The notes under the pieces are model-generated. The model saw only the letters and a list, made by a program, of their open reading frames with translations, made no database searches and was not told the DNA's origin. Shown here one piece after another: positions 28,071-44,954 of a stretch of DNA of 49,186 nt (its first letter is position 1; each line of letters opens with the position of its first letter). Source of the DNA: a virus; the IMG/VR virus record IMGVR_UViG_3300025133_000005, positions 1 to 49,186 of that record. One strand, given 5' to 3'. The position numbers were made by a program, and so were the translations under genes.

Positions 28071-28089
28071 TGATAAACTCCTTTGATGA

Positions 28090-28153
28090 TTCGTTCTGAG
28101 GGGAGCGGGTGACAGGCTCCCCCCTGCTAAGCTTGTGAGCTTGAAAGAACGAA
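28090..28153 (-). ncRNA. Structured leader candidate, three-way junction
   Basis: Outer arms TTCGTTCT (28090-28097) and AGAACGAA (28146-28153) enclose a GC-rich hairpin GGGGAGC/GCTCCCC (28100-28106 with 28116-28122) and a second hairpin AAGCT/AGCTT (28129-28142). It lies between the Com-like gene and the 65-residue gene, 20 nt before the latter's start. No U-run follows, so it is not a terminator. It could be an aptamer, an RNA-protein site or a stability element. Confidence 0.5.
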
Positions 28154-28199
28154 ATTAATACTAACAATTAAACCGTATGTTTACAAGTTTAATAACACC

Positions 28200-31220: not shown

Positions 31221-31256
31221 ATAACAATCATATTGTTGATAACAATCATATTGTTG
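31221..31256. promoter_or_regulatory. Tandem palindromic operator pair
   Basis: ATAACAATCATATTGTTG occurs twice head to tail. Each copy contains the perfect inverted repeat AACAAT-CAT-ATTGTT. The second overlaps the -35 box of the next promoter, and a third, looser symmetry (TTGTTG-ACGC-CAACAA, 31251-31266) follows. This is a typical repressor array; no repressor gene was identified. Confidence 0.75.
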
Positions 31257-32317: not shown

Positions 32318-32546
32318 ATTCGAATACAGAATAGCTGAGAGAGACGGGTATTTCTACCCTCATGTTAGGGAAAAGTGGCTGTGTTTCTGGCTGGAATGGG
32401 AGCGTATATACCTTTACAGAGGAGGGGTTGAAACAACAGATGCCTTATATAGATGTGATTCCAGCAAGGAGGACTGCTTAGTGCTTATAGATCTCCATAA
32501 AGAAAAAGACAAGCCAATCAATGTTGTATTTCACGAAATCCATTGA
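32310..32546 (+). CDS. Small hypothetical protein
   Basis: 78 residues; ATG 32310 is 5 nt after AGGAGG. Aromatic N-terminal half (YFYPHVREKWLCFWLEWERI). Its stop codon lies inside the -35 box (TTGACA) of the next promoter. Confidence 0.55.
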   Translation: MAKFEYRIAERDGYFYPHVREKWLCFWLEWERIYLYRGGVETTDALYRCDSSKEDCLVLIDLHKEKDKPINVVFHEIH

Positions 32547-32571
32547 CAATATCTAATAAATAGAATATACT
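32543..32571 (+). promoter_or_regulatory. Early promoter upstream of a structured leader
   Basis: TTGACA (32543-32548), 17-nt spacer, TATACT (32566-32571). The 13 bases AAATCCATTGACA around the -35 are identical to the promoter at 44.8 kb, which also feeds a nested stem-loop leader. Confidence 0.85.
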
Positions 32572-32583
32572 AGTCCCATCTTT

Positions 32584-32653
32584 AGTTGTTCTCCCCTGCA
32601 GGGATAGCAGTTAACGATATTTATTATTATTAATTGCTATAGGGAGAACAACT
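32584..32653 (+). promoter_or_regulatory. Nested stem-loop leader hiding a ribosome site (L1)
   Basis: Outer stem AGTTGTTCTCCC (32584-32595) with GGGAGAACAACT (32642-32653), 12 perfect pairs, includes the GGGAGA ribosome site of the gene at 32657. Inner hairpin TAGCAGTTAA (32605-32614) with TTAATTGCTA (32630-32639), one G-U. A CCCTGCAGGG palindrome lies between. The leader starts about 6 nt after the expected transcript start. Confidence 0.75.
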
Positions 32654-32656
32654 ATC

Positions 32657-32869
32657 ATGAGAACTACTTTAAATCTTTGGATTTCAGACCACATAACAAA
32701 TCTTTGCTTAGTAAACTATCTTGAAACAAAGGATGAGAGATGGTGGACTTTACACAAGATCAGAGTTGATGAAATAATAGATGGTAGAAGTATTGTTGAA
32801 ACCAATAACAAGGATGATGTAAACACTGAACTAGATAGACTTTTCATTAATTATGAAAATCGTATATGA
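32657..32869 (+). CDS. Small hypothetical protein under leader L1
   Basis: 70 residues. Its only good ribosome site (AGGGAGA) is inside the 12-bp outer stem of the leader. Mixed helical sequence (NLWISDHITNLCLVNYLETK, then TELDRLFINYENRI). No family recognised. Overlaps the HNH gene by 17 nt. Confidence 0.6.
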   Translation: MRTTLNLWISDHITNLCLVNYLETKDERWWTLHKIRVDEIIDGRSIVETNNKDDVNTELDRLFINYENRI

Positions 32870-33296
32870 AGACAACTATGAGGTTCACAGCTCAGGTATA
32901 GTCTATTCAATAAAAAGACTAGTGACAGCAAAAAACGGCTCAACAAGGAAGGCAGGTGGGCGCATCCTCAAGCACACAATCGATAAATACAAATATCCAA
33001 TGGTAAAGATCAATAAAAAGAAAATAGCCCTCCACAAGCTTATAGCATCCCTGTTTGTACCAAACCCAAAGAGCCACAAGCACGTCATCCATAAAGACAA
33101 CAACAAGCTAAACAACAATTACACCAATTTACTATGGGTAAATAAGGATATTTACTATAAAAACCGTCGGGAACCAATCGACCTAATCTATCAATTCATG
33201 GAAATCAACGATAATCGGAAAATTAATTCCCAGTTAATACAACCATTTACAAAAAACATTAAAAAAAAATTAGGAAATATTAAAAGGTCGACATAA
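32853..33296 (+). CDS. HNH homing-type endonuclease
   Basis: 147 residues. VHSSGIVYSIKRLV and GGRILKHTIDKYKYPMVKIN are the NUMOD/AP2-like DNA-contact segments. HKLIASLFVPNPKSHKHVIH plus KDNNKLNNNYTNLLWV is the HNH_3 core (His, Asn-rich turn, N...LWV). Very basic overall. Such nucleases are selfish elements or nick near their own site. It sits beside the iteron-like intergenic region, possibly its target. Confidence 0.8.
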   Translation: MKIVYEDNYEVHSSGIVYSIKRLVTAKNGSTRKAGGRILKHTIDKYKYPMVKINKKKIALHKLIASLFVPNPKSHKHVIHKDNNKLNNNYTNLLWVNKDIYYKNRREPIDLIYQFMEINDNRKINSQLIQPFTKNIKKKLGNIKRST

Positions 33297-33397
33297 AGAA
33301 GTATTATACCATACAATGAAATACATTGAACCAAATAACCGGTTAGTTCACTACCAACTATCTACTTAATACCACAACATCTGGTGCACAAAAGTGA

Positions 33398-33560
33398 GTA
33401 CAGAAATTCAGAAAAAATTTGTGAGCGTACACTACCTGTAGAAATTACCAAAAAATTTGTGAGTGGTACATATATATACCCCCAAGCCGACCCCTTTGGA
33501 CCATTTTGGGTTTTACTCACACGTCCGGATATCGTACACCCCATGTCCGGTAATCATACA
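33398..33560. repeat. Iteron-like repeats in a convergent intergenic region (origin candidate)
   Basis: The gap 33297-33715 has no gene. It holds two 34-bp units sharing GAAATT-N4-AAAAAATTTGTGAG and ending in TACA (33398-33431 and 33437-33470). A second pair, ACGTCCGGATATCGTACA (33521-33538) and ATGTCCGGTAATCATACA (33543-33560), follows. AT-rich stretches lie between and GGGTAA/TTACCC arms at 33661-33676. Neighbouring genes converge, so promoters are not expected here. Confidence 0.55.
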
Positions 33561-33715
33561 TTATTCTATCTAGTTTGTGTCTTATTGTAACAATGTAAGG
33601 TTTTGTGTGCATAAGGTGGGCTCAAAATTGAGCGTGGTGTAACAAACTGCGTGTGGGTAAGGGTTAAGCATTACCCAAAACACCCCAAAACACACCAAAT
33701 CAAGCTAGAAACTAT

Positions 33716-34138
33716 TCAAGCTCTTAACCTCACAACCTCTTTTTCTTTACTGTTTTTCATCTCCTTAACAGTGTCATCTAGTGAAGCAAATTCTCTAATT
33801 GAGTCTGCAAATTCCTTCCACGTTTTAAGCCTGTCTATCTCCTGCCTAAATGAGCCATCGGTATCCATTTGTTCTATGTTGATTAAATTATGCATATACT
33901 TCTGAAACATAGTGCTTGCAAGGTTTTGAGAAACATCAGGCATTAGTTCTTTTATATGTTGTTGTGCCTTGTTGTATACGTTCCTTGCTTGTTTATCTGA
34001 ATAAGAAAACTCTAATCTTAACTGCCTTAGTATATTCTTTTTGGTTACATTATTGATTTGCATAGACAACACATATTGCAATCGTTTTTGCATCTCAAAT
34101 TTATTTATTCTCTTATATCCTACTATTTCCCTTTCCAT
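33716..34138 (-). CDS. Hypothetical helical DNA-binding-type protein
   Basis: 140 residues; ATG 34138 has AAAAGGTG 8 nt upstream. Basic and all-helical; TKKNILRQLRLEFSYSDKQA followed by RNVYNKAQQHI could be a helix-turn-helix. It might be a regulator or a small-terminase-like protein. One of only two minus-strand genes inside the early region, opposite the origin candidate. Confidence 0.5.
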   Translation of the reverse strand: MEREIVGYKRINKFEMQKRLQYVLSMQINNVTKKNILRQLRLEFSYSDKQARNVYNKAQQHIKELMPDVSQNLASTMFQKYMHNLINIEQMDTDGSFRQEIDRLKTWKEFADSIREFASLDDTVKEMKNSKEKEVVRLRA

Positions 34139-34162
34139 TTCAATCACCTTTTATAAATAGTT

Positions 34163-34209
34163 GGTAAGTTACTTAAATGATAATAGTTATCATCTATCTT
34201 ACCATTATA
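34163..34209 (-). promoter_or_regulatory. Extended -10 element and hairpin upstream of the 140-residue gene
   Basis: Minus strand TGTGTATAAT (-10 at 34204-34209) lacks a good -35. The perfect hairpin ATGATAA-tag-TTATCAT (34177-34193), flanked by GGTAAG/CTTACC, follows. The gap 34139-34365 holds nothing else that I can assign. Confidence 0.45.
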
Positions 34210-34365
34210 CACAAATAGTGCTTATTTCTATAGAAAAGTGCTAATTTAGTTTCCGGTGGTATTGTTTTTCGATAACATTTAATAAGACTTTTAGTAATTG
34301 GTGCTTTATATATAGTTACTTGGATATAGTTATTTAGTTACTTTAAAATGTAAATAACTCTTTCT

Positions 34366-34578
34366 TCATTTCAGTAGTGCCTTTATAAATAATATTGCGT
34401 TTCTATCTTCCTTTTGTTGTTCCATGTGTTCAACTACTTCTACTATTCTATTTAATGACTCTTTGAACTTTATTTGTGAATGTAGGTCAATCAATCCGTT
34501 CATTTCCAAGGATTCTTTTAAATTGTTTATTTCATTGGATAGGGTTTTGATTCGCTCCATGTGTTCTTCTTTCATCAT
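34366..34578 (-). CDS. Small coiled-coil protein
   Basis: 70 residues; ATG 34578 with GAGGTGG upstream. Leu/Glu/Asn-rich heptads (RIKTLSNEINNLKESLEMNG, RIVEVVEHMEQQ) indicate a coiled coil. Directly behind a promoter that shares its start region with the operator-controlled promoter at 31.26 kb. A small regulator is possible. Confidence 0.55.
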   Translation of the reverse strand: MMKEEHMERIKTLSNEINNLKESLEMNGLIDLHSQIKFKESLNRIVEVVEHMEQQKEDRNAILFIKALLK

Positions 34579-34611
34579 TTCACCACCTCTTTTGGTTAAC
34601 AAGCTACGCTT

Positions 34612-34640
34612 ATTATATAAGGTATAGAGATTCCTGTCAT
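34612..34640 (-). promoter_or_regulatory. Promoter for the coiled-coil gene
   Basis: Minus strand ATGACA (34635-34640), 17-nt spacer, TATAAT (34612-34617), then AAGCGTAGCTTGT. From ATATAATAAG to CTTGT the 20 bases match the plus-strand promoter at 31.28 kb. Confidence 0.75.
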
Positions 34641-34774
34641 TCTTTTTTTATAGAAAAACCACTTTATTATTATTTAATTCAATTAATCATACCATTTATG
34701 CATATTTGGTAGTAAGTTTTCTTCCAGTGTTATCAGGTAGTTATAAAATAAATGAAAGAAATACACATTTTGTC

Positions 34775-34803
34775 TTGACATATTTGTCATGAAATGCTAT
34801 TCT
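34775..34803 (+). promoter_or_regulatory. Early promoter with operator-like inverted repeat
   Basis: TTGACA (34775-34780), 17-nt spacer, TATTCT (34798-34803). The inverted repeat TGACA-tatt-TGTCA (34776-34789) covers the -35, suggesting repressor control. A roughly 250-nt leader follows with hairpins, for example AAGAATT/AATTCTT (34858-34882). No gene is visible in 34641-35059 apart from these signals. Confidence 0.7.
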
Positions 34804-34958
34804 TTACTTGTAGCCGACGAGATCTTTTACAATCGAGAGCAGGAACAGCAGTGCACAAAGAATTAATTAAATGTAAATTCTTAATGATTCGTTAACTATG
34901 TAGATAATAGTTGTAAGTGTAAGGCGACACAGGAAATAAGATCAAATGAATTTAAATA

Positions 34959-35015
34959 ACTACCTTCTATAGATTAAACATCATAACGATTTGCATTTAA
35001 TTTATCGGAGGTAGT
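34959..35015 (+). promoter_or_regulatory. Nested stem-loop leader (L2) hiding GGAGG
   Basis: Outer stem ACTACCTTC (34959-34967) with GGAGGTAGT (35007-35015), nine pairs with one G-U, holds the GGAGG site of a 6-codon ORF (GTG 35020 to TAA 35040). The loop TTAAACATCATAACGATTTG (from 34974) is nearly the same in L3. A second site AAGGGG then serves the gene at 35060. Confidence 0.65.
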
Positions 35016-35059
35016 CAGTGTGAATTTATTTTACTATTAATTATTTAAGGGGTAACAAA

Positions 35060-35164
35060 ATGGAAACATTACTTGATAGATTAGCAATACCATTAGGAAT
35101 TATAATGATGGTTGTTGTGCTGACTCCAGTTGCAATAATTGCAGTTGGTTTTTTAACGAAATGA
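35060..35164 (+). CDS. 34-residue membrane peptide
   Basis: METLLDRLAIPLG followed by a continuous membrane segment (about residues 11-31) and a short TK end. AAGGGGTAACAAA upstream. It sits between the two duplicated leaders L2 and L3. Small early membrane peptides of this kind can act on the host envelope; no family can be assigned. Confidence 0.6.
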   Translation: METLLDRLAIPLGIIMMVVVLTPVAIIAVGFLTK

Positions 35165-35173
35165 ATTAAGATA

Positions 35174-35228
35174 CTATCTATCCTTTATTAAACATCATTA
35201 CGATATGCATTTTTTAAAGGGTAGGTAG
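35174..35228 (+). promoter_or_regulatory. Nested stem-loop leader (L3), duplicate of L2
   Basis: Outer stem CTATCTATCCTTTA (35174-35187) with TAAAGGGTAGGTAG (35215-35228), 14 pairs with two G-U, includes the AAAGGG site. Loop TTAAACATCATTACGATATG (from 35188) differs from L2 at two positions. A 14-codon ORF (35231-35275, rich in Leu/Tyr) follows and overlaps the next start. Confidence 0.7.
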
Positions 35229-35267
35229 AAATGTTGATTTATTTATTATTATTTAAAGGGGATTATT

Positions 35268-35510
35268 ATGAATAATTTACAAGCAATGGTTTACAACCAA
35301 AAACAACAACTTCAAAAAACAAACATGGAAATTGAAAAAGTAACAACAAGTATTAAACGTCAAATGCACATTTATGATAAATGTGATGCGGAGTTAAGCG
35401 ACAAATTAGAATGGTTGTTAGAATTTAAATCTGGAATTGAAAAAGCATTAAGGCAAACTGAAGCTGATTTAAAAGTTGCTGTTATAGTAATTCAGGCACT
35501 TTGCATATAA
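35268..35510 (+). CDS. Small coiled-coil hypothetical protein
   Basis: 80 residues with AAAGGGGATTATT upstream. Gln/Lys/Glu-rich helix (QAMVYNQKQQLQKTNMEIEK) and a helical C-terminus. Its start overlaps the short ORF of L3, so its translation may be coupled. Function unknown. Confidence 0.6.
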   Translation: MNNLQAMVYNQKQQLQKTNMEIEKVTTSIKRQMHIYDKCDAELSDKLEWLLEFKSGIEKALRQTEADLKVAVIVIQALCI

Positions 35511-35567
35511 GTGGAAAAATGAATAACACAGTTGATATTTATAACGATTAATAAAGAGGTGGCTAAA

Positions 35568-35987
35568 ATGAAGAAAATAGAAAAACTAACAAACAACATT
35601 CAAAAGCTTGAAAAGAACTTCCCAAATTATTATGAAATTGATTTATTCATCAGAGATGCAAAAGCATACATTCAAGCCATTAAACAGGGGCGAATGATAT
35701 GCAACGTGGCAAGCGTTTCAAAATCAGGCATGACAAGAAAGATGGTTTTCAATTCTTGTGAGAAGGGCGACAAACATAGACCTTTCTTTTATAGACAATA
35801 TAGTTCTTTCTTCCAAGCGTTGGGAACTTTCAATGTTAACAGAGATCATCAAATCGTTGTTGGTGGCTGTGGTATGGATATGATCTTCCATGTGAACTAT
35901 ACAACTATTCACCAACTACATAAACTCGGATTTATCAGCAGAAAAGAATGCGACAAATTAGCTCAGCAGACACCAACTTGGATTTAA
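35568..35987 (+). CDS. Hypothetical phage protein with conserved GGCGMDMIF motif
   Basis: 139 residues; ATG 35568 with AAGAGGTGG, rather than the upstream ATG 35532. Conserved-looking core SVSKSGMTRKMVF ... VGGCGMDMIFHVNYTTIHQL, then a C-terminal LAQQTPTWI. I have seen this layout in phage proteins of unknown function but cannot name the family. Upstream is another TAACGAT-containing AU hairpin. Confidence 0.6.
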   Translation: MKKIEKLTNNIQKLEKNFPNYYEIDLFIRDAKAYIQAIKQGRMICNVASVSKSGMTRKMVFNSCEKGDKHRPFFYRQYSSFFQALGTFNVNRDHQIVVGGCGMDMIFHVNYTTIHQLHKLGFISRKECDKLAQQTPTWI

Positions 35988-36067
35988 TGGAGAAAATAAT
36001 GCTACTAACCATATCACTTTTCACTTTGCTTTTCGGTTTTATCTACCTTGACCTTTTCAGGTCGTAA
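35987..36067 (+). CDS. Tiny membrane peptide
   Basis: 26 codons in TAATG overlap with the previous stop; an internal ATG at 35999 with GGAG 7 nt upstream may be the true start (22 residues). Almost all hydrophobic (LLTISLFTLLFGFIYLDLF). Confidence 0.45.
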   Translation: MEKIMLLTISLFTLLFGFIYLDLFRS

Positions 36068-36097
36068 ACATCCTACCTATTCGGGAAACTCAAAAAC

Positions 36098-36125
36098 GGG
36101 TCACTTATAAAGAGTGGCTCTTCTT
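36098..36125 (+). terminator. Weak intrinsic terminator
   Basis: GGGTCACT (36098-36105) pairs with AGTGGCTC (36113-36120), eight pairs with two G-U, loop TATAAAG, then TTCTTT. It could end part of the transcripts from 34.8 kb. Confidence 0.5.
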
Positions 36126-36165
36126 TGATAGTTCTGAATTATAAATTATTAAACGGGGCAAAATT

Positions 36166-36360
36166 ATGAGAATAGAACAACACAAAAACTCCACTTATGT
36201 TTTAACCGATGGCACTAAAACAATGGAAGAAGTTGAGAGCTTCCTAGAAAACAACACGGATAACTATGAAAACCTAGCCTTTATCGAAAAAGATGAAGCT
36301 GTGGCGAGGTTATATGAAGCAACTGAATGTTTTATTTTTCACAACGAGGTGACAACATGA
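36166..36360 (+). CDS. Small acidic hypothetical protein
   Basis: 64 residues from ATG 36166 with a modest ACGGGG site. The sequence NSTYVLTDGTKTMEEVESFL and a Glu/Asp-rich centre give no family. ATGA overlap with the next gene. Confidence 0.5.
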   Translation: MRIEQHKNSTYVLTDGTKTMEEVESFLENNTDNYENLAFIEKDEAVARLYEATECFIFHNEVTT

Positions 36361-36551
36361 AAGTAATAACATACTATGTTGAATTTAACCACAAAGAATA
36401 CATGTGTTCACAAGGCGTTGAAATAACGTGCTTAGACTCTGACAAAGAAGAACTAATAAGAAGTGCAGAGGTTGACTATATAAATCATCTCATAACGTAT
36501 AGCTTGCCTCTATCTTACACCAAAGAGATAAATCTACAATGTGAGCGTTAA
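36357..36551 (+). CDS. Small hypothetical protein
   Basis: 64 residues; ATG 36357 follows AACGAGGTGACAAC, a ribosome cassette repeated at 36741. Beta-like start (VITYYVEFNHKEYMCSQGVE) and an acidic middle. Unknown. Confidence 0.5.
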   Translation: MKVITYYVEFNHKEYMCSQGVEITCLDSDKEELIRSAEVDYINHLITYSLPLSYTKEINLQCER

Positions 36552-36561
36552 GGGGGTTTAT

Positions 36562-36750
36562 ATGAGTAAATATTTATGTAGTTGTGGAAAGGCAATAGAT
36601 GACACAGAAATCAGGATAGTTGCAATGAACACAATGCTAGTAACTGATAAAAACAATCAGGTTATATATATTGTGCATGGCAATACATATATATATAACG
36701 CTAACAACATTATAAACGCTTTAACAGGTATGAAAACCATAACGAGGTGA
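36562..36750 (+). CDS. Small hypothetical protein with CxC motif
   Basis: 62 residues; ATG 36562 with AAGGGGG, not the GTG at 36541. YLCSCGKAIDD at the N-terminus could be half of a zinc site; the rest is beta-like (NNQVIYIVHGNTYIYNANN). Unknown. Confidence 0.5.
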   Translation: MSKYLCSCGKAIDDTEIRIVAMNTMLVTDKNNQVIYIVHGNTYIYNANNIINALTGMKTITR

Positions 36751-36754
36751 CAAC

Positions 36755-36967
36755 ATGAATTTATTTATATATAACGAACACACCTGCAGAGCTGGCGAAC
36801 AATTCCAGTATGACGAAATGATTTACACACCTGACGATTTTAAAAACAGCGATGATTTGACGGAATACACAGAAGAGGATATTCCTATCATGAAGGAAGT
36901 TTTGAAGCGTAGTAACAATTTATATGATATCAGGACTGCAAAAACAGTATTAGAATTCTTTAAATAG
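36755..36967 (+). CDS. Small acidic hypothetical protein
   Basis: 70 residues after the second copy of the AACGAGGTGACAACATGAA cassette. Very acidic middle (DDLTEYTEEDIPIMKEVLKR). Could be a DNA-mimic or an inhibitor type, but nothing specific supports this. Confidence 0.5.
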   Translation: MNLFIYNEHTCRAGEQFQYDEMIYTPDDFKNSDDLTEYTEEDIPIMKEVLKRSNNLYDIRTAKTVLEFFK

Positions 36968-37284
36968 CTTGCAAGCAAAAAAGAACTGGCAATTTTATTA
37001 ATTATTAAAGGAGAGTCCATGCAAAGAAACTGACACCACGTTTTCTTATACCCTCCCATGCACAAAAACTTGGGATAAAGGGTAATCGTTCTACATATTA
37101 GAATTGAAACATTATTTATTAACTACCAGATAAATACTGTTTCTTTAAAAAGCTTGCCTATAGACTGAACAAAAACAGTCCTCCCAAATAAGGCATCGTT
37201 CTTTATTCATAATGATTGGTTGTGGGGCGGATCTTTATTAATAATTAAATTAATTAAAGAACATGATAACCGCCCCACTTTTTT
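36968..37284 (+). terminator. Non-coding stem-loop region ending in an intrinsic terminator
   Basis: No gene lies in 36968-37344. A strong ribosome site (AAAGGAGAGTCC) precedes a 4-codon ORF (37019). Hairpins follow: TACCCT/AAGGGTA, then GACTG-aacaaaaa-CAGTC. Last comes GTGGGGCGG (37222-37230) with CCGCCCCAC (37270-37278) followed by T7, with an AU hairpin inside its loop. The last is a convincing terminator despite the long loop. Confidence 0.65.
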
Positions 37285-37344
37285 AGAATTCTTAAACAAT
37301 TAAGACTTGTAAAAAGGTTTAACAATTAAAAAAAGGTGGTGAAA

Positions 37345-37764
37345 ATGATTATAACAACTAAAGAACGTGGATATAAAGGTCACTTTTGCGGGGCAAACAA
37401 CTGCCTATTTGGACGAAACACACTTATTAAATGTGAATCAATAAGCGTTGTAGTATCAACCGTGGGAGTGTGGATTATTGATGGAGTAATAGCCAAAATA
37501 GGGCTAAATAGATACTATGAGACAATGATATTTGAATCATCATATGACAAATACGATGATGCAAACGTATCACACAACATATATATTGATGGTAAAACCT
37601 GTATAAATTCACCCTCAAAAGACATAGGGGCGGATGCAATGCATGACAATGCTGTGAAAGAAGTTACCAAACTAATTGAAAATAATAACTTATGGGTGGA
37701 GCGATACAACTCGGAGACAGGGTGCATAGAGGAATTTAATCCAACAACTAAAGATAAGAGGTGA
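37345..37764 (+). CDS. Hypothetical protein
   Basis: 139 residues; ATG 37345 after AAAGGTGGTGAAA. Beta-rich first half (SVVVSTVGVWIIDGVIAKIG) with several cysteines, helical second half (DNAVKEVTKLIENNNLWVER). Unknown family. First gene after the terminator at 37.28 kb; no clear promoter seen before it. Confidence 0.55.
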   Translation: MIITTKERGYKGHFCGANNCLFGRNTLIKCESISVVVSTVGVWIIDGVIAKIGLNRYYETMIFESSYDKYDDANVSHNIYIDGKTCINSPSKDIGADAMHDNAVKEVTKLIENNNLWVERYNSETGCIEEFNPTTKDKR

Positions 37765-37769
37765 TAAAA

Positions 37770-38054
37770 ATGTTTAGAATTGAGAAAAAAGACACAAACG
37801 GTCAATTTATTTACGAGCTAACTTTCAACACATGGAAAGAGCTAACAATGGAGCTTGGCAGAAGAAACAGGGAGGCAAACTCTGTATTTTACGGAGTTCC
37901 TGCTGTAATTTACAAAGGCGAAAATGATATAGGTGACACTAGCACGTTCGACCAAGTAGAAAAACCTATAACTCAGATCACTTTAACAGAATTTATAAAT
38001 GCAGAAATGGATTCTTTAGATAAATTTGTTAGTGATGGAGGTTTAAATGTTTAA
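37770..38054 (+). CDS. Small hypothetical protein
   Basis: 94 residues; ATG 37770 after AAGAGGTGATAAAA. Helix-strand mixture (FIYELTFNTWKELTMELGRR), unknown family. Overlaps the next small gene by 8 nt. Confidence 0.5.
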   Translation: MFRIEKKDTNGQFIYELTFNTWKELTMELGRRNREANSVFYGVPAVIYKGENDIGDTSTFDQVEKPITQITLTEFINAEMDSLDKFVSDGGLNV

Positions 38055-38163
38055 CTTACAATTCTCATTAAATCGAAGAGAAAAACTACTCCTTATCATA
38101 ATGTTAATACCAGTAAATATACTGGAGTGGTGCTATAAACTTAAAAGGAGGGTGTTTAAATGA
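38047..38163 (+). CDS. Small basic membrane peptide
   Basis: 38 residues. Basic ends flank a hydrophobic centre (LLLIIMLIPVNILEW). It carries the AAAAGGAGGGTG site of the next gene in its last codons and ends ATGA with it. Confidence 0.5.
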   Translation: MFNLQFSLNRREKLLLIIMLIPVNILEWCYKLKRRVFK

Positions 38164-38327
38164 AAAGCTACAACGTGCTTAAGCAAATAATCATAGCTGA
38201 GGGCTTCAGATTCAGCTCTAGTGGCACGCATTACGAATATTGGATAAAAGGTGGTAGGGCGATAAAAGTATTGCGCCTACATGGAAAAGCGAAAGTGCTT
38301 GGTAATAAATGGAAATATAATTTTTAA
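38160..38327 (+). CDS. Small basic protein, HicA-like in outline
   Basis: 55 residues with AGGAGGG upstream. The order helix (NVLKQIIIAEGF), strand with G-T-H-Y (SSSGTHYEYWIKGG) and strand (AIKVLRLHGKAKV) recalls the dsRBD-like fold of HicA toxins, but no HicB partner is present. A weak resemblance. Confidence 0.45.
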   Translation: MKSYNVLKQIIIAEGFRFSSSGTHYEYWIKGGRAIKVLRLHGKAKVLGNKWKYNF

Positions 38328-38339
38328 TGGAGAATGACA

Positions 38340-38888
38340 ATGAGAATGACAAAAAAGATCGCGAATGAAGTATCAATTAGAATTGCAGAGGCTAAATTTG
38401 ATGAAAAACTGCAAAAGCTACGAAAACAGATAGTTATTTTAGCCAAACAGGAAGTAAGTAAAGGAAAGTTAATGCGTGATGATATTCCCGAACACTTAAA
38501 GGGATATGTTAAAACGTACCAAAGTATTGTATTTAAAGGCAATGTTAGAAACTGGTTTAAAAAAATAGACATATCTGATTTGGGTCTACTGTTACCATCA
38601 GATAAATGGGATGACAGATTGTATATTGACCTTATTAGCTCACAAAAAGACCCGCTAATTAAGTTATGCGACACATTTACAAACACATATATATCGTTTG
38701 AAGCTCTAAAGGAAAATGTCTATTGTGAATTACGGGGATTCACCACTATAGCAAAGTTGCTCAAACACAATCCAGAAATAGCTCCGTTTATGCCAGTAGA
38801 AACAAGATCTAGCAAAAACTTACCAGATAAGCACAAAATAAGTGAAGGACTTTTAAACGTCATAAAAGAGGTGACAAATGAGAATTAA
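38340..38888 (+). CDS. Hypothetical protein, Nmad5-like candidate
   Basis: 182 residues; ATG 38340 with GGAG 7 nt upstream. Helical N-terminus, LPSDKWDD in the middle and an end pattern GFTTIAKLLKHNPEIAPFMP that recalls small phage proteins labelled nucleotide-modification-associated (Nmad5). I rate this only as possible. It overlaps the next gene by 11 nt. Confidence 0.45.
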   Translation: MRMTKKIANEVSIRIAEAKFDEKLQKLRKQIVILAKQEVSKGKLMRDDIPEHLKGYVKTYQSIVFKGNVRNWFKKIDISDLGLLLPSDKWDDRLYIDLISSQKDPLIKLCDTFTNTYISFEALKENVYCELRGFTTIAKLLKHNPEIAPFMPVETRSSKNLPDKHKISEGLLNVIKEVTNEN

Positions 38889-39219
38889 TGAAGCAAAAGC
38901 AGGTTCAATATTCATGGATAAATTACAGGAAAGCGGACTACATAAAAGTAAGCCGTTTCAAATTGATAACAGGAACTACAAAAACACGTACCATGATGGA
39001 GAGTTTGAGCTTTTTTGTGTGGATATGCTGAACAAGTGCGAATCATACGATAAACTTGAAAAGCTGTTTGAAACTACGATTGACAATATACGCACCGATA
39101 CAGCTCTATTAAGTGATGACCTGCAATCTGAAATAGAGAAAGCGAAAATGACAACTAAAATAACAACTCTAATATCATTTATTATCGTAGTCGCCTTATC
39201 GATGGCTATTATACTATAA
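38878..39219 (+). CDS. Tail-anchored membrane protein
   Basis: 113 residues. Soluble helical body with one C-terminal membrane segment (about residues 95-113, TTLISFIIVVALSMAIIL). GAGGTGACAA precedes ATG 38878. Unknown role; the topology points to cytoplasmic action at the inner membrane. Confidence 0.6.
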   Translation: MRINEAKAGSIFMDKLQESGLHKSKPFQIDNRNYKNTYHDGEFELFCVDMLNKCESYDKLEKLFETTIDNIRTDTALLSDDLQSEIEKAKMTTKITTLISFIIVVALSMAIIL

Positions 39220-39232
39220 AAGGAGGGTGAAA

Positions 39233-39469
39233 ATGACACGTTTATGCATAAATTGCGGTAAGATCATAACAAAAGGTTGCTGGTGTGAGGTATGCCATTT
39301 TGCCGTGCTTGCAGTCATTATGGTGCAACAGCAAATGCTAGAAGCGGGTGAGGTGAAAATCAATCATCCAATGGAAAAAATGGAAAGTGACCAACAAACA
39401 ACCATCTATACAGTTGCTCACGATACGCATGAAATAACAACAAAGAAGATAACAAGGGGTACAAAATGA
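39233..39469 (+). CDS. Small zinc-binding protein
   Basis: 78 residues; ATG 39233 after AAGGAGGGTGAAA. RLCINCGKIITKGCWCEVCH is a compact four-Cys zinc site; the C-terminal half is Thr/Gln-rich. ATGA overlap with the ERF gene suggests a shared role or co-translation with recombination. Confidence 0.55.
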   Translation: MTRLCINCGKIITKGCWCEVCHFAVLAVIMVQQQMLEAGEVKINHPMEKMESDQQTTIYTVAHDTHEITTKKITRGTK

Positions 39470-40065
39470 GTAAAGAACTATGTCAATTAGCTAGTAAGCT
39501 ACTACAAATAACATCGGAAATAGGCAATGTGGAAAGCGATGGACACAATAAACACCAAAACTTTAAATTCGTTAGCCATCAACAAATGACTGCAATTTTA
39601 AGAAAAAAACTTATAGAACATAACTTAATTATATTACCTACTGTAAAATCATACGAAGAAAAATCTTTTCCAACAAAAAGCGGAACTCAAAATGTTAGAA
39701 CAATTGTTACTATGAATTTTCAAATAATCGACATAGAAACAGGGTTTTCAATCAATCAACAATTTACTGGTGCCGATCAGGACACAAGCGGGAAAAGCAT
39801 GGGGCAAGCTATAACTGAATGCGTGAAAAGGTTTCAATTTAAGCAGTTTTTTGTCAACGATAAAAATGAGATTGATCCAGACAGCAAAGGTGAGGACGTG
39901 ACAACTGAAGAGCAGGCAAAAACTCAAATAGGTAAAGAAATACGGTGTTTATATCCAGAAGCATCCGAAGAGAAACAGGCTTCTTTTACGGATTATTTAA
40001 ACGGAAGAAAATTACATGATCTTTCACTTGATGAATTATTCAAAGCAAAAGGAGTGTTGAAATGA
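39466..40065 (+). CDS. erf: ERF-family single-strand annealing protein
   Basis: 199 residues. SKLLQITSEIGNVESDGHNK followed by FVSHQQMTAILRKKLIEHNL, TIVTMNFQIIDIETG and GADQDTSGKSMGQAITECVK RFQFKQFF matches the N-terminal ERF domain. The C-terminal third is charged. ERF proteins anneal complementary strands and help circularise or recombine phage DNA. Neighbours include an SSB-like gene, fitting a replication-recombination module. Confidence 0.85.
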   Translation: MSKELCQLASKLLQITSEIGNVESDGHNKHQNFKFVSHQQMTAILRKKLIEHNLIILPTVKSYEEKSFPTKSGTQNVRTIVTMNFQIIDIETGFSINQQFTGADQDTSGKSMGQAITECVKRFQFKQFFVNDKNEIDPDSKGEDVTTEEQAKTQIGKEIRCLYPEASEEKQASFTDYLNGRKLHDLSLDELFKAKGVLK

Positions 40066-40331
40066 AACTAGATGACATAATAAAAGCAGCAAAAGAAGCT
40101 GACTTTAAAACACTAAAAGAAATGGGGTTTTTCAGCTTTGATATAAGCCTGAGAGACAACTCCATAAAAGTAATGGGTAGAGCAAAAGATACTGGTGAAG
40201 CTAGAGATATCTTTTTATCTGGATTTTGTGCAACCGATGATTGGGAAGGTGAAGAAAACACCTACACAACATTCATTAAAGATGACGTAAAAGTAACGAT
40301 TTCAAAGGAGAAGAACGATGGAAATAGATAA
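40062..40331 (+). CDS. Small hypothetical protein
   Basis: 89 residues, ATGA overlap with erf. Helix then strands (KEMGFFSFDISLRDNSIKVM, DVKVTISKEK). Tight coupling suggests it works with the ERF protein; no family recognised. Confidence 0.55.
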   Translation: MKLDDIIKAAKEADFKTLKEMGFFSFDISLRDNSIKVMGRAKDTGEARDIFLSGFCATDDWEGEENTYTTFIKDDVKVTISKEKNDGNR

Positions 40332-40557
40332 ATATAAAATGGGTGGTGCTGACTATTACCCCAGTAAGATGCGAAAATTCTCAACGATGTTTACTAAAAA
40401 GCAGTTCCCATTGATCTATCAAAAGCTTATCAGAGATAGAGGCTGGAAGATCACAGAGGTAGCAAAGATGCTGATTGAGCTTGGATATGACGCTTGGGTG
40501 AAGGAAATGCATATTCAAGAGGCACTTGAAAGGGAAGCTGAAAAGGAGAATTCCTAA
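40318..40557 (+). CDS. Small protein with possible helix-turn-helix
   Basis: 79 residues with AAAGGAGAAGAACG. RGWKITEVAKMLIELGYDAW and KEMHIQEALERE may form a helix-turn-helix DNA-binding domain. Unknown family. Confidence 0.5.
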   Translation: MEIDKYKMGGADYYPSKMRKFSTMFTKKQFPLIYQKLIRDRGWKITEVAKMLIELGYDAWVKEMHIQEALEREAEKENS

Positions 40558-40777
40558 CAATAAGTTAAATGAACTAAAGGAAATAGAAGAACAATGCAGA
40601 TTATTACTCCTGAGAGGACACGTAGAGGCTGAAAATGTTTTATCAATGGTGTTGCTTAAGATAGAGCTTTTGCGCCCTAGGATGGGTAATTATGCAGGTA
40701 AGGTAAATTGGTTGGATATTGCGAGATATCGAAATGAAAAACTAAAGGAGAAAAAGGATGATAATACTAAAAAATAA
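40526..40777 (+). CDS. Small basic hypothetical protein
   Basis: 83 residues if TTG 40526 is used; no better start is available in frame. Helical and charged (NELKEIEEQCRLLLLRGHVE). The 32-nt overlap with its neighbour and weak start make the N-terminus uncertain. Confidence 0.45.
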   Translation: MKGKLKRRIPNNKLNELKEIEEQCRLLLLRGHVEAENVLSMVLLKIELLRPRMGNYAGKVNWLDIARYRNEKLKEKKDDNTKK

Positions 40778-41048
40778 TTATCGAATAGATGTTTCAGGAA
40801 GTGGATATAAACTCTTCAAACATCTTGGATTCAAAGAAAATAAAGATGGTAAGCAAGAAGAGCTCCAGCAAACAGTTGGCTATACTGGAAAGGTAGAGCA
40901 AGCCTTAACTCTTTATTTGGATGCAATCCTTAAAGATAGAATGACTGATGAAGCAATGAGTGTAAAAGAACTTAAAGCTTTTATATTGAATACTAAGTAC
41001 GAGATACTTAACGGTTACTCAACGGAATTTAAAGGAGAAAAAGAATGA
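40758..41048 (+). CDS. Hypothetical protein
   Basis: 96 residues with AAAGGAGAAAAAGG. Contains DVSGSGYKLFKHLGF and a helical second half. The ribosome cassette AAAGGAGAAAAAG is reused for the next gene. No family recognised. Confidence 0.5.
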   Translation: MIILKNNYRIDVSGSGYKLFKHLGFKENKDGKQEELQQTVGYTGKVEQALTLYLDAILKDRMTDEAMSVKELKAFILNTKYEILNGYSTEFKGEKE

Positions 41049-41449
41049 GAATTAATCTTGAAAAAAAGTACGTAGACAGAGCAAAGGAGTTAATCGCAGG
41101 ACTAAGAAAGCACAATGTTAGAGAGCAGGAATTGATCGAACAATTCATACCGAAAACACAAAAGCTGGTTGTGTGGCTAACTAATAACAGCATGGACACA
41201 TTAAGGGATTATCTCTATACTGAATTTGGTAGAGACATTCTTGTGTACTTTCAGAAAAACCACAACGGTGAAATTGGTGCATTGTACAAGGAATTGCCAG
41301 AGCTACCAGTAGCTTGTAAGGACTGCGGAGAATATCCAATTATCGATGAATCAACACAATGCCTTACTTCAGACTGTGCTTTTCAAGGGAAAATCTTTGA
41401 AGATGTAGCAGAATGGAATGCTAGAATGACTAAATTTAAAGGAGAATAA
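41045..41449 (+). CDS. Protein with C-terminal Lar-like zinc ribbon
   Basis: 134 residues. Helical first 85 residues, then ACKDCGEYPIIDESTQCLTS with DCAFQG and a terminal AEWNARM, the layout of Lar/DUF551-type restriction-alleviation zinc ribbons (CxxCG...C...C...eWN). Lar proteins modulate host type I restriction; whether this one does is unknown. Confidence 0.55.
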   Translation: MRINLEKKYVDRAKELIAGLRKHNVREQELIEQFIPKTQKLVVWLTNNSMDTLRDYLYTEFGRDILVYFQKNHNGEIGALYKELPELPVACKDCGEYPIIDESTQCLTSDCAFQGKIFEDVAEWNARMTKFKGE

Positions 41450-41451
41450 TT

Positions 41452-41796
41452 ATGAGTATGTTTGAAATATTTTTAATACTAAAACTGGATGATATTGTCA
41501 TTTTTTATAAGATATTCATAGCTGTTCTACTTTTGCCTCTGGGTGCTTTATGGGGAATGCGCTACGCTGATGACATTAAATCATTGGAAAAACCAGCTAT
41601 TAAACTAACTGTTGCTTGGATTGTTTTTGTAATCATGCTAGTGCTTACGCCAAACACAAAAACAGCACTCACCATGATAGCTGGAGAGAGTATAACCAAT
41701 AACAAGGAAATTATAAAAACGGTTGATAAAAGCGTAGAGCTACTTCCGAAGGTAATTGAAGCCATAGATAAATACTTAGACAAAAAAGGAGAATAA
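41452..41796 (+). CDS. Two-pass membrane protein
   Basis: 114 residues. Membrane segments at about 17-36 and 51-66, then a charged helical tail (NKEIIKTVDKSVELLPKVIE). Could be a holin-like or early membrane factor; it lies among replication genes, not lysis genes. GGAGAATAATT precedes ATG 41452. Confidence 0.6.
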   Translation: MSMFEIFLILKLDDIVIFYKIFIAVLLLPLGALWGMRYADDIKSLEKPAIKLTVAWIVFVIMLVLTPNTKTALTMIAGESITNNKEIIKTVDKSVELLPKVIEAIDKYLDKKGE

Positions 41797-41798
41797 CC

Positions 41799-42173
41799 AT
41801 GAATGCAAAAAACACAGAAACAGGAAAACTAAAGAAAATGCCAGCACCAATCCTTAAAAGGGATGGAACACCACTTAAAAATAAACATGAATTCTGGATA
41901 ATTAAAAACGAAAACACAGATTATCCTGATGTTATTCCTTTCCAGATTGTTACTGAGAAAGGGCTTGAATACTTTCCAAAGGATTTAAAACTTGGTGACG
42001 CTGTTGTAGTTGAATTCACGCTCTCAGGTCGATTATGGGAAGGTAGATGTTTTGGTTCCAATATCGCATGGAGGGTGTCAGCAGACAACAACGATGCAAT
42101 GAATAAAGGACTTGAAGCAGCTTATAATGAGGCTAAAGGTGATAAAGATGTTGAAGATCTTCCTTGGGAGTAG
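41799..42173 (+). CDS. DUF3127-like single-stranded-DNA-binding candidate
   Basis: 124 residues. Strand order with PDVIPFQIVTEKGLEYF, LKLGDAVVVEFTLSGRLWEG and NIAWRVSAD resembles the OB-fold of DUF3127/SSB-like proteins. The acidic end EDLPWE mimics the SSB tail that recruits partner proteins. It lies in the module with erf and before the initiator and helicase, so it probably coats ssDNA during replication. Confidence 0.65.
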   Translation: MNAKNTETGKLKKMPAPILKRDGTPLKNKHEFWIIKNENTDYPDVIPFQIVTEKGLEYFPKDLKLGDAVVVEFTLSGRLWEGRCFGSNIAWRVSADNNDAMNKGLEAAYNEAKGDKDVEDLPWE

Positions 42174-42360
42174 TAACCTTCTAATCTTAGCTTTCACAAT
42201 AACGATTAATTGCAGTAAGGGGGTTGATGAAGATCAGCTCCTTTTACTTGCTTCAAAGATTCCAGTTAACACATCATTTAGGATATATCTTTGCAATCGT
42301 TATTATGTGTTGAAAAGAGGGAACACTTTTGTTGACTATATAAAGGAGAAGAAGTTATGA
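42148..42360 (+). CDS. Small secreted or membrane-anchored protein candidate
   Basis: 70 residues; ATG 42148 with AAAGGTG rather than the upstream ATG 42112 inside the previous gene. Hydrophobic N-terminal stretch (IFLGSSNLLILAFTITINCS) may be a signal sequence, with Cys 24 (INCSKG) as a weak lipobox. The rest is basic. Unknown. Confidence 0.45.
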   Translation: MLKIFLGSSNLLILAFTITINCSKGVDEDQLLLLASKIPVNTSFRIYLCNRYYVLKRGNTFVDYIKEKKL

Positions 42361-42575
42361 GCAGGATTCCTATAGATTTAACAGATAGAGAGCTGAACAT
42401 AGTATATCAAGGTCTTTTCTTGCTTTTTAATGAAAGAAATGCCTACTGGAGCAAAGGGAGAATCAGGGTTTTAAACAATCTGTTGAAGAAACTAAATGAG
42501 TCAGCCAGAGAAAGAAAGGATTGTGAAAGTATAATGAGATCTTTTTACGAATTTGAAGAGGAGGATGAGTTATGA
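42357..42575 (+). CDS. Small hypothetical helical protein
   Basis: 72 residues, ATGA overlap and GGAGAAGAAGTT. Helical throughout (LTDRELNIVYQGLFLLFNER). No family recognised. Confidence 0.5.
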   Translation: MSRIPIDLTDRELNIVYQGLFLLFNERNAYWSKGRIRVLNNLLKKLNESARERKDCESIMRSFYEFEEEDEL

Positions 42576-42796
42576 AATATACATGGAGCGACCCAGAAAG
42601 ATTATGCAGAAGTCGAATGGATGACAACTTTGAAAGACTTGCAGATCTTGCAAATAAATTAAAAGCATTGGATGACCATACGATTACTAAGCTATATGAA
42701 CATGTTGATGAAATGCAGCAGGAAATCGAACAGCTTAGAGATGAATTAGTCCAGTTGTTAAAACACAAGGCAGTTGATGTCGGAGGGGGAATATGA
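42572..42796 (+). CDS. Small coiled-coil protein
   Basis: 74 residues, ATGA overlap with the previous gene. ADLANKLKALDDHTITKLYE and EMQQEIEQLRDELVQLLKHK form a clear coiled coil. Probably oligomeric; role unknown. Confidence 0.55.
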   Translation: MKYTWSDPERLCRSRMDDNFERLADLANKLKALDDHTITKLYEHVDEMQQEIEQLRDELVQLLKHKAVDVGGGI

Positions 42797-42987
42797 GTAA
42801 AGTAGCCAGAGCAACGATACTTGGTTTTCATTGTTCGGATATTTCAGGTGAAAGTTGTAGTTGGGGTATACCTACAGATTTGGGAACATGTCAGTTTGCA
42901 GTGGGGGGAGCATGTATCAACATAGAGACACAGAAAGAAGTAATGAGGAAAAAGATAGAATCATTCAGGAAAAAGAAGAACTACTAA
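42793..42987 (+). CDS. Small Cys-containing hypothetical protein
   Basis: 64 residues after GGAGGGGGAAT. Compact, Gly/Cys-rich first half (SDISGESCSWGIPTDLGTCQ), basic end. It overlaps the next gene by 76 nt, more than usual here, yet both have excellent ribosome sites. Confidence 0.5.
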   Translation: MSKVARATILGFHCSDISGESCSWGIPTDLGTCQFAVGGACINIETQKEVMRKKIESFRKKKNY

Positions 42988-43151
42988 AGTTGATAGAAAA
43001 AGCTAGGGATGCCTTGCAAGTTGTTCCAAAAGACAATCCACTATATTCATGGTGGCAGGGAAGGCTTGCAAGGACTACAAAGGTTTACACAGGTGCCTAT
43101 GGGGAGGTGCCGAGGGTAGAAAAGGATATTAAACAAGGAGGATTATTTTGA
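42912..43151 (+). CDS. Small helical protein
   Basis: 79 residues; ATG 42912 follows GGGGGGAGC, so the upstream ATG 42861 is not needed. Charged coiled coil (NEEKDRIIQEKEELLKLIEK) then an aromatic segment (PLYSWWQGRLARTTKVY). Unknown. Confidence 0.5.
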   Translation: MYQHRDTERSNEEKDRIIQEKEELLKLIEKARDALQVVPKDNPLYSWWQGRLARTTKVYTGAYGEVPRVEKDIKQGGLF

Positions 43152-43744
43152 AGGACAAATACATAAAAATATGTGAAAAAATAGTCAAACAAGGCAACTG
43201 CGATAATATTAAGTGCAATACCTGCCCATTTTACTATGGTAAATATTTTTGCTTTACATGTAGTATGAAAATATCACTTGCAAAAGAATACTTAAAACAA
43301 CATGGAGGACACACAATGAACGAAAAAGATAAACTCAGTAAAGTAATCGAAGACTTAGAAAAAAGCTTGTCAGAGGCGAAATCGGAGCTTGAGAGCATGA
43401 ATAATAAATACACTATGAGGCTACAGGTCAGCTGCAAAAACCTATACATAATGGTCGGAGATGGACCGATAGGGTTCATAAATAGTGCAGGGAAATGTGC
43501 CATATTAAATAATGTGCCTTACATTTCACGTTACGAACTATGGAGAGAGAACGGCATGAAGGTTGATGATTCAGTTGTTAAGTGGAGAGATGGGGGATAT
43601 TGGCTTGAAAACTTCTGTTTAATGAGAATAACCCCAACTGACGACCATGACATATACAACTTTAAACATTGTTTTGCACACGACGGTTGCGAAGACGAAA
43701 ACATAGTGCGCCACAAACACAACAAACGACCAATATTATTTTAG
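43148..43744 (+). CDS. Hypothetical protein with N-terminal Cys cluster
   Basis: 198 residues from TTG 43148 with AGGAGGATTAT. Residues 8-40 carry a CDNIKCNTCPFYYG...CFTCS zinc-type cluster, followed by a coiled coil (DKLSKVIEDLEKSLSEAKSE) and a beta-type C-terminal half ending in KHNKRPILF. An ATG after AACATGGAGGACACACA (43316) could give a shorter second product lacking the Cys cluster. Confidence 0.55.
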   Translation: MKDKYIKICEKIVKQGNCDNIKCNTCPFYYGKYFCFTCSMKISLAKEYLKQHGGHTMNEKDKLSKVIEDLEKSLSEAKSELESMNNKYTMRLQVSCKNLYIMVGDGPIGFINSAGKCAILNNVPYISRYELWRENGMKVDDSVVKWRDGGYWLENFCLMRITPTDDHDIYNFKHCFAHDGCEDENIVRHKHNKRPILF

Positions 43745-43753
43745 GAGTTGAAA

Positions 43754-44008
43754 ATGGAAAAGATGGTGAAAACTAAAAAGGAAATTGAAGCTCATCTAAA
43801 GAGCAGAAAGTACTATAGAGTTTCATGTGGTGATTATTACAACGAAGCAGGGGTATACTTCACTAATTACATGTTTCGCATGTGTGGGCAAAGATACAGT
43901 GCCACAAAGGTGTTAGATCCAGATAGTCATATGTATGATTATGAATTGCATACAAAGCATGGAAGCTATCTATTTAAAAATATCTGGCTAGATGGAGGTA
44001 GTAAATGA
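43754..44008 (+). CDS. Small hypothetical protein
   Basis: 84 residues; ATG 43754 after TTAGGAGTTGAAA. Tyr/Cys-rich (YYRVSCGDYYNEAGVYFTNY). The C-terminal half of the preceding protein shows a similar 'W..GG.WL.N' type of ending (here YLFKNIWLDGG), possibly distant relatives. Confidence 0.5.
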   Translation: MEKMVKTKKEIEAHLKSRKYYRVSCGDYYNEAGVYFTNYMFRMCGQRYSATKVLDPDSHMYDYELHTKHGSYLFKNIWLDGGSK

Positions 44009-44160
44009 CTCCATACGTGGCACTACAACACCTGAAACTACATGATAGGATTAAGGCTTTGAAAAAGAAGATCGATGAAACAAAGGATGAGGATTACAAG
44101 TTAAAGCTTGAACAGGAACTGTTTGAGGCTGATAGGGAATTAGAGGATTTGGATAGTTAG
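44005..44160 (+). CDS. Small coiled-coil protein
   Basis: 51 residues in ATGA overlap, GGAGGTAGTAA upstream. Lys/Glu/Asp-rich helix (IKALKKKIDETKDEDYKLKL) ending in DRELEDLDS. Stop directly precedes the next AGGAGG. Confidence 0.55.
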   Translation: MTPYVALQHLKLHDRIKALKKKIDETKDEDYKLKLEQELFEADRELEDLDS

Positions 44161-44169
44161 GAGGAGAAA

Positions 44170-44565
44170 ATGATTGACTGGGAAAAGGTTGCAGAGGATA
44201 GAGCACCGTGTTATTTTTGGCTTTTTAAGAATTATGATGACAAAATAGCTGGTAATTTACGTTGTTTTTATGGTAAAAATTTAATCCATCCCTTTGAGGC
44301 TTTAGATGGTTTTAAGTATCACAATTGCGAATTAATCCTTGATTCAGACAAGGAGAAGTACACTATTAAAGAGACTGAATATAGAGCTTGCGAGAATTGG
44401 GAAGAGTTTAAGTTTTTCTTTGGGAAGATGGCTAAAATGAAAAATTTGGATAATTATGAAACTATAAGCAATGTTTATTTCCCTGAAAGCTCAAAATATT
44501 GGTTTGAACACTGGGAACTAATAGAACCTATTAACGGATCAAAAATAATCGGGGTGCGGGTATGA
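44170..44565 (+). CDS. Hypothetical protein
   Basis: 131 residues with TAGGAGGAGAAA. Trp/Phe/Tyr-rich (DRAPCYFWLFKNYDDKIAGN, FPESSKYWFEHWELIEPING). Unknown family. A minimal 7-codon ORF overlaps its end and carries the next ribosome site. Confidence 0.5.
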   Translation: MIDWEKVAEDRAPCYFWLFKNYDDKIAGNLRCFYGKNLIHPFEALDGFKYHNCELILDSDKEKYTIKETEYRACENWEEFKFFFGKMAKMKNLDNYETISNVYFPESSKYWFEHWELIEPINGSKIIGVRV

Positions 44566-44588
44566 AGAAACTAATAGGGAGGTGTTAA

Positions 44589-44786
44589 ATGATGTTTTTA
44601 AACGCACTTGCAGTGTACACATTATCTGCTTGCTCGCTTCTAACACTTGTAAGTATCGCCATCATTAATCGTGACTATGATTACAAAGATCTAGGCGATC
44701 AACTTGAGCTTTTTGGCTCGATGTCAGGCAAGCCATTGTTTGTTGCTGGAGTATGTATGCTCTGGCTTATATTCGGTGGTGTGTAA
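44589..44786 (+). CDS. Two-pass small membrane protein
   Basis: 65 residues after GGGAGGTGTTAA. Membrane segments at about 5-26 and 48-65 with a short acidic loop. Last gene before the promoter at 44.8 kb. A holin-like topology, but not near any lysis enzyme. Confidence 0.55.
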   Translation: MMFLNALAVYTLSACSLLTLVSIAIINRDYDYKDLGDQLELFGSMSGKPLFVAGVCMLWLIFGGV

Positions 44787-44793
44787 AAAATCC

Positions 44794-44822
44794 ATTGACA
44801 GGACTGATTAGTTCTGGTATCG
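44794..44822 (+). promoter_or_regulatory. Promoter of the replication genes
   Basis: TTGACA (44794-44799), 17-nt spacer ending in TGG (extended -10), TATCGT (44817-44822). The AAATCCATTGACA stretch is shared with the promoter at 32.54 kb. Confidence 0.75.
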
Positions 44823-44833
44823 TATGGGTAACG

Positions 44834-44902
44834 AATGCTGTCTTTCTCTTGCGCAAGACTAAGACAGTAATTAATTTATTGTCTTAGAAGAGGAGGACAG
44901 CA
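44834..44902 (+). promoter_or_regulatory. Nested stem-loop leader hiding ribosome site and start codon (L4)
   Basis: Outer stem ATGCTGTCTTTCTC (44834-44847) with GAGGAGGACAGCAT (44889-44902), 14 pairs with two G-U, covers both GAGGAGG and the first two bases of the ATG at 44901. Inner hairpin CTAAGACAGTAA (44858-44869) with TTATTGTCTTAG (44875-44886), one G-U. The layout matches L1. Confidence 0.75.
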
Positions 44903-44954
44903 TGTTCAATCAACTACAAAAATCACATGACATTCAGGAGTTAAACAATGACTA
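44901..44954 (+). CDS. 17-residue leader peptide
   Basis: MFNQLQKSHDIQELNND, preceded by the sequestered GAGGAGG and overlapping the start of the DUF1376 gene. Its last codons contain CAGGAG, the ribosome site of that gene. Translation of this peptide may therefore be needed to open or couple the replication gene. Confidence 0.5.

Follow-up and report, generated by a model that had tools for sequence, protein, structure and literature searches.

Several systems have been described in which a hairpin in a bacterial or phage messenger RNA governs the ribosome site near it. In phage T4, the Shine-Dalgarno (SD) sequence and/or the AUG of genes e, soc, 49 and I-TevI is sequestered in a helix, and for gene e and I-TevI the silencing is confined to long early transcripts, late promoters freeing both by dropping the 5' arm (PMC3014915). 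A hairpin was also found to hide the ribosome site of mobE, which encodes an HNH homing endonuclease of phage Aeh1, as far as that work (Gibb and Edgell 2009) is represented in the paper that cites it (PMC3014915). Metastable hairpins characterize the leader of the MS2 maturation gene and hok mRNA (as described in PMC6733600), and the stability of two further examples, the 5' stem-loop of Bacillus subtilis aprE and SP82 phage mRNA, needs ribosome binding at their sites (PMC7509114). The present analysis concerns IMG/VR virus record IMGVR_UViG_3300025133_000005 (the window, 49,186 bases in all), in which four leader hairpins, termed L32, L44, A and B, lie in rightward operons and enclose SD sequences in their stems.

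The four leaders resemble the T4 examples in that the SD and/or start codon of a phage mRNA is paired in a stable local helix, which is true of all four in the predicted ground state, and the SD in each stem stands at the proper distance from a start codon. They differ from T4 e and I-TevI in that the promoters found here lie upstream of the 5' arm and in that the stems are nested. L32 resembles Aeh1 mobE, to the extent that the citing source describes the latter, in placing a ribosome-site hairpin in one unit with an HNH endonuclease, whereas the site hidden by L32 belongs to a 70-amino-acid open reading frame (ORF) that overlaps the HNH start. The likeness to MS2 and hok consists in an early hairpin being replaced by a later SD-hiding helix, a behavior that is predicted for L44; it differs here in being significant in L44 alone and known from computed folding only. 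The four are most fittingly classed as new representatives of an established kind, the ribosome-site hairpin, and the explanation that we prefer, at a probability of roughly 0.55, is that the four hairpins are cis-acting translational locks at ribosome sites in early-type operons.

The window is probably a complete phage genome, because a 48-base direct repeat is present at both of its ends; structural genes (terminase) run leftward and replication genes (those for a DUF1376/primosomal protein, a DnaB helicase and ERF) run rightward. The operons that carry the leaders would be of early type, as judged from gene content alone. The stems, the hidden SD sequences and the conservation of pairing between A and B were demonstrated in silico; in cells, the 5' arm of each long helix would be made before the 3' arm, which holds the purine-rich SD of the first ORF, and translation of that ORF would stay low or absent for as long as the helix is neither opened nor cut. 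The locked ORF would be, at L32, that of the 70-amino-acid protein overlapping the HNH endonuclease and, at L44, A and B, a short leader ORF that precedes a gene whose own SD is open.

An earlier note on this DNA had drawn attention to two promoters with a shared block, each followed by a long stem enclosing an AU-rich hairpin, and these features, those of L32 and L44, were recovered (Table 1). The stems are long, as claimed, but the 12 and 14 pairs originally counted became 13 contiguous base pairs (bp) in L32 and 16, including two G-U pairs, in L44; the enclosed hairpins have 11 and 12 bp. The note had further placed the SD in the outer stem, together with part of the AUG at 44.9 kilobases (kb), and this also held: GGGAG (32642-32646) lies within the 3' arm of L32, with AUG 32657 just beyond the stem, and GAGGAGG (44890-44896) lies in the 3' arm of L44, where the A and U of AUG 44902 are themselves paired. 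In both leaders the outer and inner stems are linked by 8 nucleotides (nt) on the 5' side and 0-1 nt on the 3' side, and a perfect 10-nt palindrome, made up of the 8-nt link plus the tip of the 5' arm, occupies the junction in a register that is equal within 1 nt; the window as a whole has one such 10-nt palindrome per 1046 nt.

The fold energies of L32 and L44 (-33 and -37 kcal/mol, with z-scores of -6.4 and -7.0) were attained by none of 200 shuffled sequences. In a folding scan of 90-nt stretches over the whole window the two leaders came fourth and second by energy, respectively, and when the window was searched for nested stems they took ranks 1 and 2 on the + strand. In about 1.1 megabases of other viral DNA, SD-carrying stems of similar energy occur about once per 49 kb and are mostly GC-rich or long-looped. 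The L44 sequence folds at -36.8 kcal/mol as + strand RNA versus -26.0 kcal/mol for the complementary strand, the G-U pairs favoring the + strand.

The window's two best SD-carrying stems both lie directly behind promoters that share the 13-nt block AAATCCATTGACA, which occurs exactly twice in the window (at 32536 and 44788) against a chance expectation of 0.01. With the predicted +1 set about 7 nt beyond the -10 box (A32578 for L32, A44830 for L44), the stems begin about 5 nt downstream, the earlier note having put them within about 6 nt of the expected start, and the two leaders have in common the promoter block, the distance from +1, the nested layout and the junction palindrome. The block is not in itself a mark of SD-hiding leaders: it occurs together with a -10 in at least 120 matches in viral contigs, and none of the 25 strongest-folding leaders behind it in other contigs hides an SD in a comparable nested stem. 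In six viral contigs (L059, L071, L123, L034, L047 and L078) the same block precedes a strong hairpin built around GACGTTTGGCTC..GAGCTAAGCGTC; this leader recurs among them and does not hide an SD.

Because L32 and L44 start about 5 nt from the predicted +1, protection of the 5' end is a real rival to translational locking, if a somewhat unlikely one; the stems would then mainly block 5'-end attack by RppH or RNase J and yield long-lived early mRNA, with SD hiding as a secondary effect. The 5' stem-loop of aprE in B. subtilis provides a precedent (Hambraeus 2002, as far as it is reported in PMC7509114), the likeness being that of a stem-loop near the 5' end, in L32 and L44 only, and at L44 the gene that follows keeps its SD open. 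The distance of leaders A and B from the promoter at 34775, about 150-360 nt, however, places them away from any predicted 5' end; an SD with a properly spaced start, present in all four stems, would be superfluous for stabilization; and stability of the aprE and SP82 type requires that the ribosome sites bind ribosomes, whereas in these four leaders the predicted ground state has a paired SD.

Leaders might also act on RNA polymerase rather than on translation. The putL and putR leader RNAs of phage HK022 act on the polymerase as cis antiterminators, and two operons of the window each open with a structured leader right behind the promoter. A put-like role is nevertheless very unlikely here: it leaves the placement of SD and start in four stems unexplained, A and B are internal, and no Rfam or literature match was obtained, the whole window giving no match at gathering score to any riboswitch or leader family of Rfam 15.

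The cost of opening the hidden sites was computed as 21.5 kcal/mol for the leader ORF of L44, 15.6 for the ORF at 32657, 22.6 for A and 21.7 for B, and that of the following genes as 3.4 (DUF1376), 4.7 (34-amino-acid ORF), 3.2 (80-amino-acid ORF) and 6.7 kcal/mol (HNH). In a genome scan of 148 SD-bearing starts (mean 7.4, standard deviation 4.0), AUG 44902 (24 kcal/mol), AUG 35231 (22) and AUG 32657 (15) were three of the four costliest independent sites; that of A falls outside the list because its ORF is too short. The stems are therefore modeled as hiding a leader ORF or a first small ORF, with the DUF1376 gene keeping its own open SD. It had been proposed that L44 controls the DUF1376 replication operon through the 17-codon leader peptide, a proposal that the fold does not support, because DUF1376 has an accessible SD of its own (3.4 versus 21.5 kcal/mol). 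Translational coupling from leader ORF to downstream gene is rated only as possible, because the ATGNNTAA overlap between them, at first thought telling, is frequent in this genome. Given the open SDs of the genes that follow L44, A and B, these three stems may instead, or also, mainly silence the leader ORF and protect the 5' end.

Temperature had been suggested as one possible trigger for opening, and an arrangement in which the SD belongs to a stem built around an AU-rich hairpin would suit an RNA thermometer, in which warming melts the stem and frees the SD. In silico, however, in none of the four leaders does the unpaired fraction of the SD exceed 0.02 at temperatures up to 70 C, and because the stems are so stable this trigger is to be regarded as extremely unlikely.

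Leaders A and B, first picked up by the folding scan of the window (z-scores of -3.7 and -4.6), provide the sole test of covariation, because no relative of the phage was found. Their alignment extends over 124 columns, with 15 of 17 loop positions identical. Among the 18 stem pairs counted, four have changed on both sides and are still paired, in two C-G has given way to U-G, and pairing is absent from three cells; paired cells amount to 91.7%, a figure that falls to 28-60% when the partner is slid by 1-3 columns. Pairing is kept in 17 of 20 pairs, against a mean of 10.4 under random substitution of equal load (P = 0.0008). The comparison supports a selected helix in these two diverged paralogues, and the two-sided changes that preserve pairs, along with the G-U pairs that favor the + strand, speak for the earlier note's contention that selection has acted on RNA structure.

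The conservation of the A/B loop beside a diverged stem is as expected for a loop that is recognized, and a phage RNA-binding protein might recognize CATCATNACGATNTGCA in A and B, or the junction palindromes in L32 and L44, and so stabilize or open the stems. Such protein-bound operators are doubtful, however, since they are without any known binding protein and no loop sequence is common to L32/L44 and A/B.

If the hairpins are translational locks, their release would, more tentatively, be a trans event, either cleavage by host RNase III of stacked helices of about 20-28 bp or the action of an RNA-binding protein (A and B share their loop sequence). Measured against a stacked double-stranded length of at least about 20 bp for RNase III, L32 offers 13 + 11 bp and L44 16 + 12 bp, and these helices of 24-28 bp may fit as substrates; A has about 19 bp with one mismatch, and B, with a 14-bp outer helix and short pairs, is the weakest case.

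For L44 a co-transcriptional timer was also considered, in which the outer 5' arm has as its first partner the inner hairpin's 5' strand, and translation is later shut off as the RNA slowly refolds into the 16-bp stem; in the early form the SD could lie partly in a loop and the AUG be open on fresh transcripts, as in the MS2 maturation-gene leader, which is the precedent (as described in PMC6733600). Nascent-chain folding gives an intermediate hairpin of this kind in both L32 and L44. That of L44 is stronger than with permuted inner strands (P about 0.001), and with it the SD costs 6.3 kcal/mol to open in place of 21.8. A simple kinetic model, in which transcription speed was the one thing varied and the energy parameters were left unchanged, holds a large part of L44 in the early form at every speed tried. 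The L32 intermediate, however, is not significant (P = 0.16-0.19), and L32 closes at once in the kinetic model; moreover, the L44 barrier moves from 5.7 to 13.9 kcal/mol with the energy parameter set, so the lifetime of the intermediate is uncertain by orders of magnitude. The timer is accordingly an unlikely account of L44, and the idea that nested, bistable leaders form a family here, the outer 5' arm of each first making an exclusive hairpin around the self-complementary junction, is less probable still.

A number of observations weigh against the preferred explanation of translational locks. T4 e and I-TevI escape their lock through a late promoter that lies within the stem, and no such promoter is evident here; a search for sigma-70-type promoters inside L32 and L44 gave none, phage-specific promoters being outside the coverage of that scan. 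At L44, A and B the SD of the main downstream gene is open, and expression of that gene could thus be left untouched by locking of the leader ORF; leader A has an ORF of only 6 codons. The A/B comparison involves two sequences only; its pairing is not significant when substitution positions are fixed and the new bases shuffled (P = 0.31), and the observed covariation was reached by 28 of 500 shuffles. Finally, no homologous leader in other phages was found in these searches: megablast, blastn and tblastn against phage records returned only remote helicase matches (about 27%) and one remote terminase match, with no nucleotide relative; the DUF1376, helicase, terminase and capsid-candidate proteins led to no related locus in viral contigs, nor the terminase to any in genomes; and a PAPS-reductase query gave 21 loci with no other gene in common with the phage except a weak HNH match in one, and with no comparable leader found among them. 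The loop shared by A and B had three matches in viral DNA, none forming a comparable stem on inspection, and none in genomes.

Table 1. Positions in the window of the leaders, their promoters and the associated reading frames
Feature	Position	Strand	Details
L32 promoter with AAATCCATTGACA block	32536..32571	+	-35 TTGACA 32543-32548, 17-nt spacer, -10 TATACT 32566-32571
Leader L32	32583..32654	+	Outer stem 32583-32595/32642-32654, 13 contiguous bp; inner AU-rich hairpin 32604-32614/32630-32640 (11 bp)
Perfect 10-nt palindrome CCCTGCAGGG	32594..32603	+	L32 outer/inner stem junction
70-amino-acid ORF, start hidden by L32	32657..32869	+	Overlaps start of HNH endonuclease gene
HNH endonuclease (NUMOD4 + HNH_3), homing-endonuclease-like	32853..33296	+
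Promoter upstream of leaders A and B	34775..34803	+	TTGACA-17-TATTCT; -35 overlaps palindrome TGACATATTTGTCA
Leader A	34959..35015	+	Stem 34959-34967/35007-35015 plus 34969-34978/34996-35005; loop CATCATAACGATTTGCA; SD GGAGG in 3' arm
6-codon GTG leader ORF behind leader A	35020..35040	+
34-codon membrane-type peptide ORF following the 6-codon ORF of leader A	35060-35164	+
Leader B, paralogue of A	35174..35228	+	Stem 35174-35187/35215-35228; loop CATCATTACGATATGCA; SD in 3' arm
14-codon leader ORF behind leader B	35231..35275	+	Overlaps start of 80-amino-acid ORF 35268-35510
L44 promoter with AAATCCATTGACA block	44788..44823	+	-35 TTGACA 44795-44800, 17-nt spacer, extended -10 TATCGT 44818-44823
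Leader L44	44835..44903	+	Outer stem 44835-44850/44888-44903, 16 bp including 2 GU; inner AU-rich hairpin 44859-44870/44876-44887 (12 bp)
L44 alternative earlier hairpin (predicted)	44836..44869	+	44836-44844/44861-44869 plus 44847-44850/44855-44858; exclusive with both final stems
Perfect 10-nt palindrome CTTGCGCAAG	44848..44857	+	L44 outer/inner stem junction
17-codon leader ORF MFNQLQKSHDIQELNND, SD hidden by L44	44902..44955	+
DUF1376/primosomal replication protein	44948..45640	+	Own SD AGGAG, open (3.4 kcal/mol)

Additional structured or promoter-like segments were noted in the window. The segment 37222-37278 was rejected as a third element, because it resembles a terminator, with a GC-rich stem of 9 bp that contains an AU hairpin and runs into TTTTTT between early operons, and a three-way-junction leader on the - strand (28079-28155), before a small leftward ORF (28070-27873), was set aside with its SD free and not hidden. 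In the segment 31137-31216, a terminator-like hairpin with eight T stands about 20 nt behind a strong promoter (TTGACA-17-TATATT), suggestive of a very short RNA or an attenuator. At 31221-31256, two tandem copies of ATAACAATCATATTGTTG stand just upstream of a promoter (TTGACG-17-TATAAT, 31254) in an operator-like arrangement, perhaps that of a repressor.

Should the locks work as proposed, the same simple RNA device would be found at four places in the early region of this phage, including before the replication operon and the HNH endonuclease. The paralogous leaders make pairing testable inside a single orphan genome, and L44 is a specific example on which one can test whether folding during transcription sets translation in a double-stranded DNA phage. 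Were the family of bistable leaders to prove true, each early transcript would have one translation window and would then lock itself, providing a DNA phage with an MS2-like timer on more than one operon.

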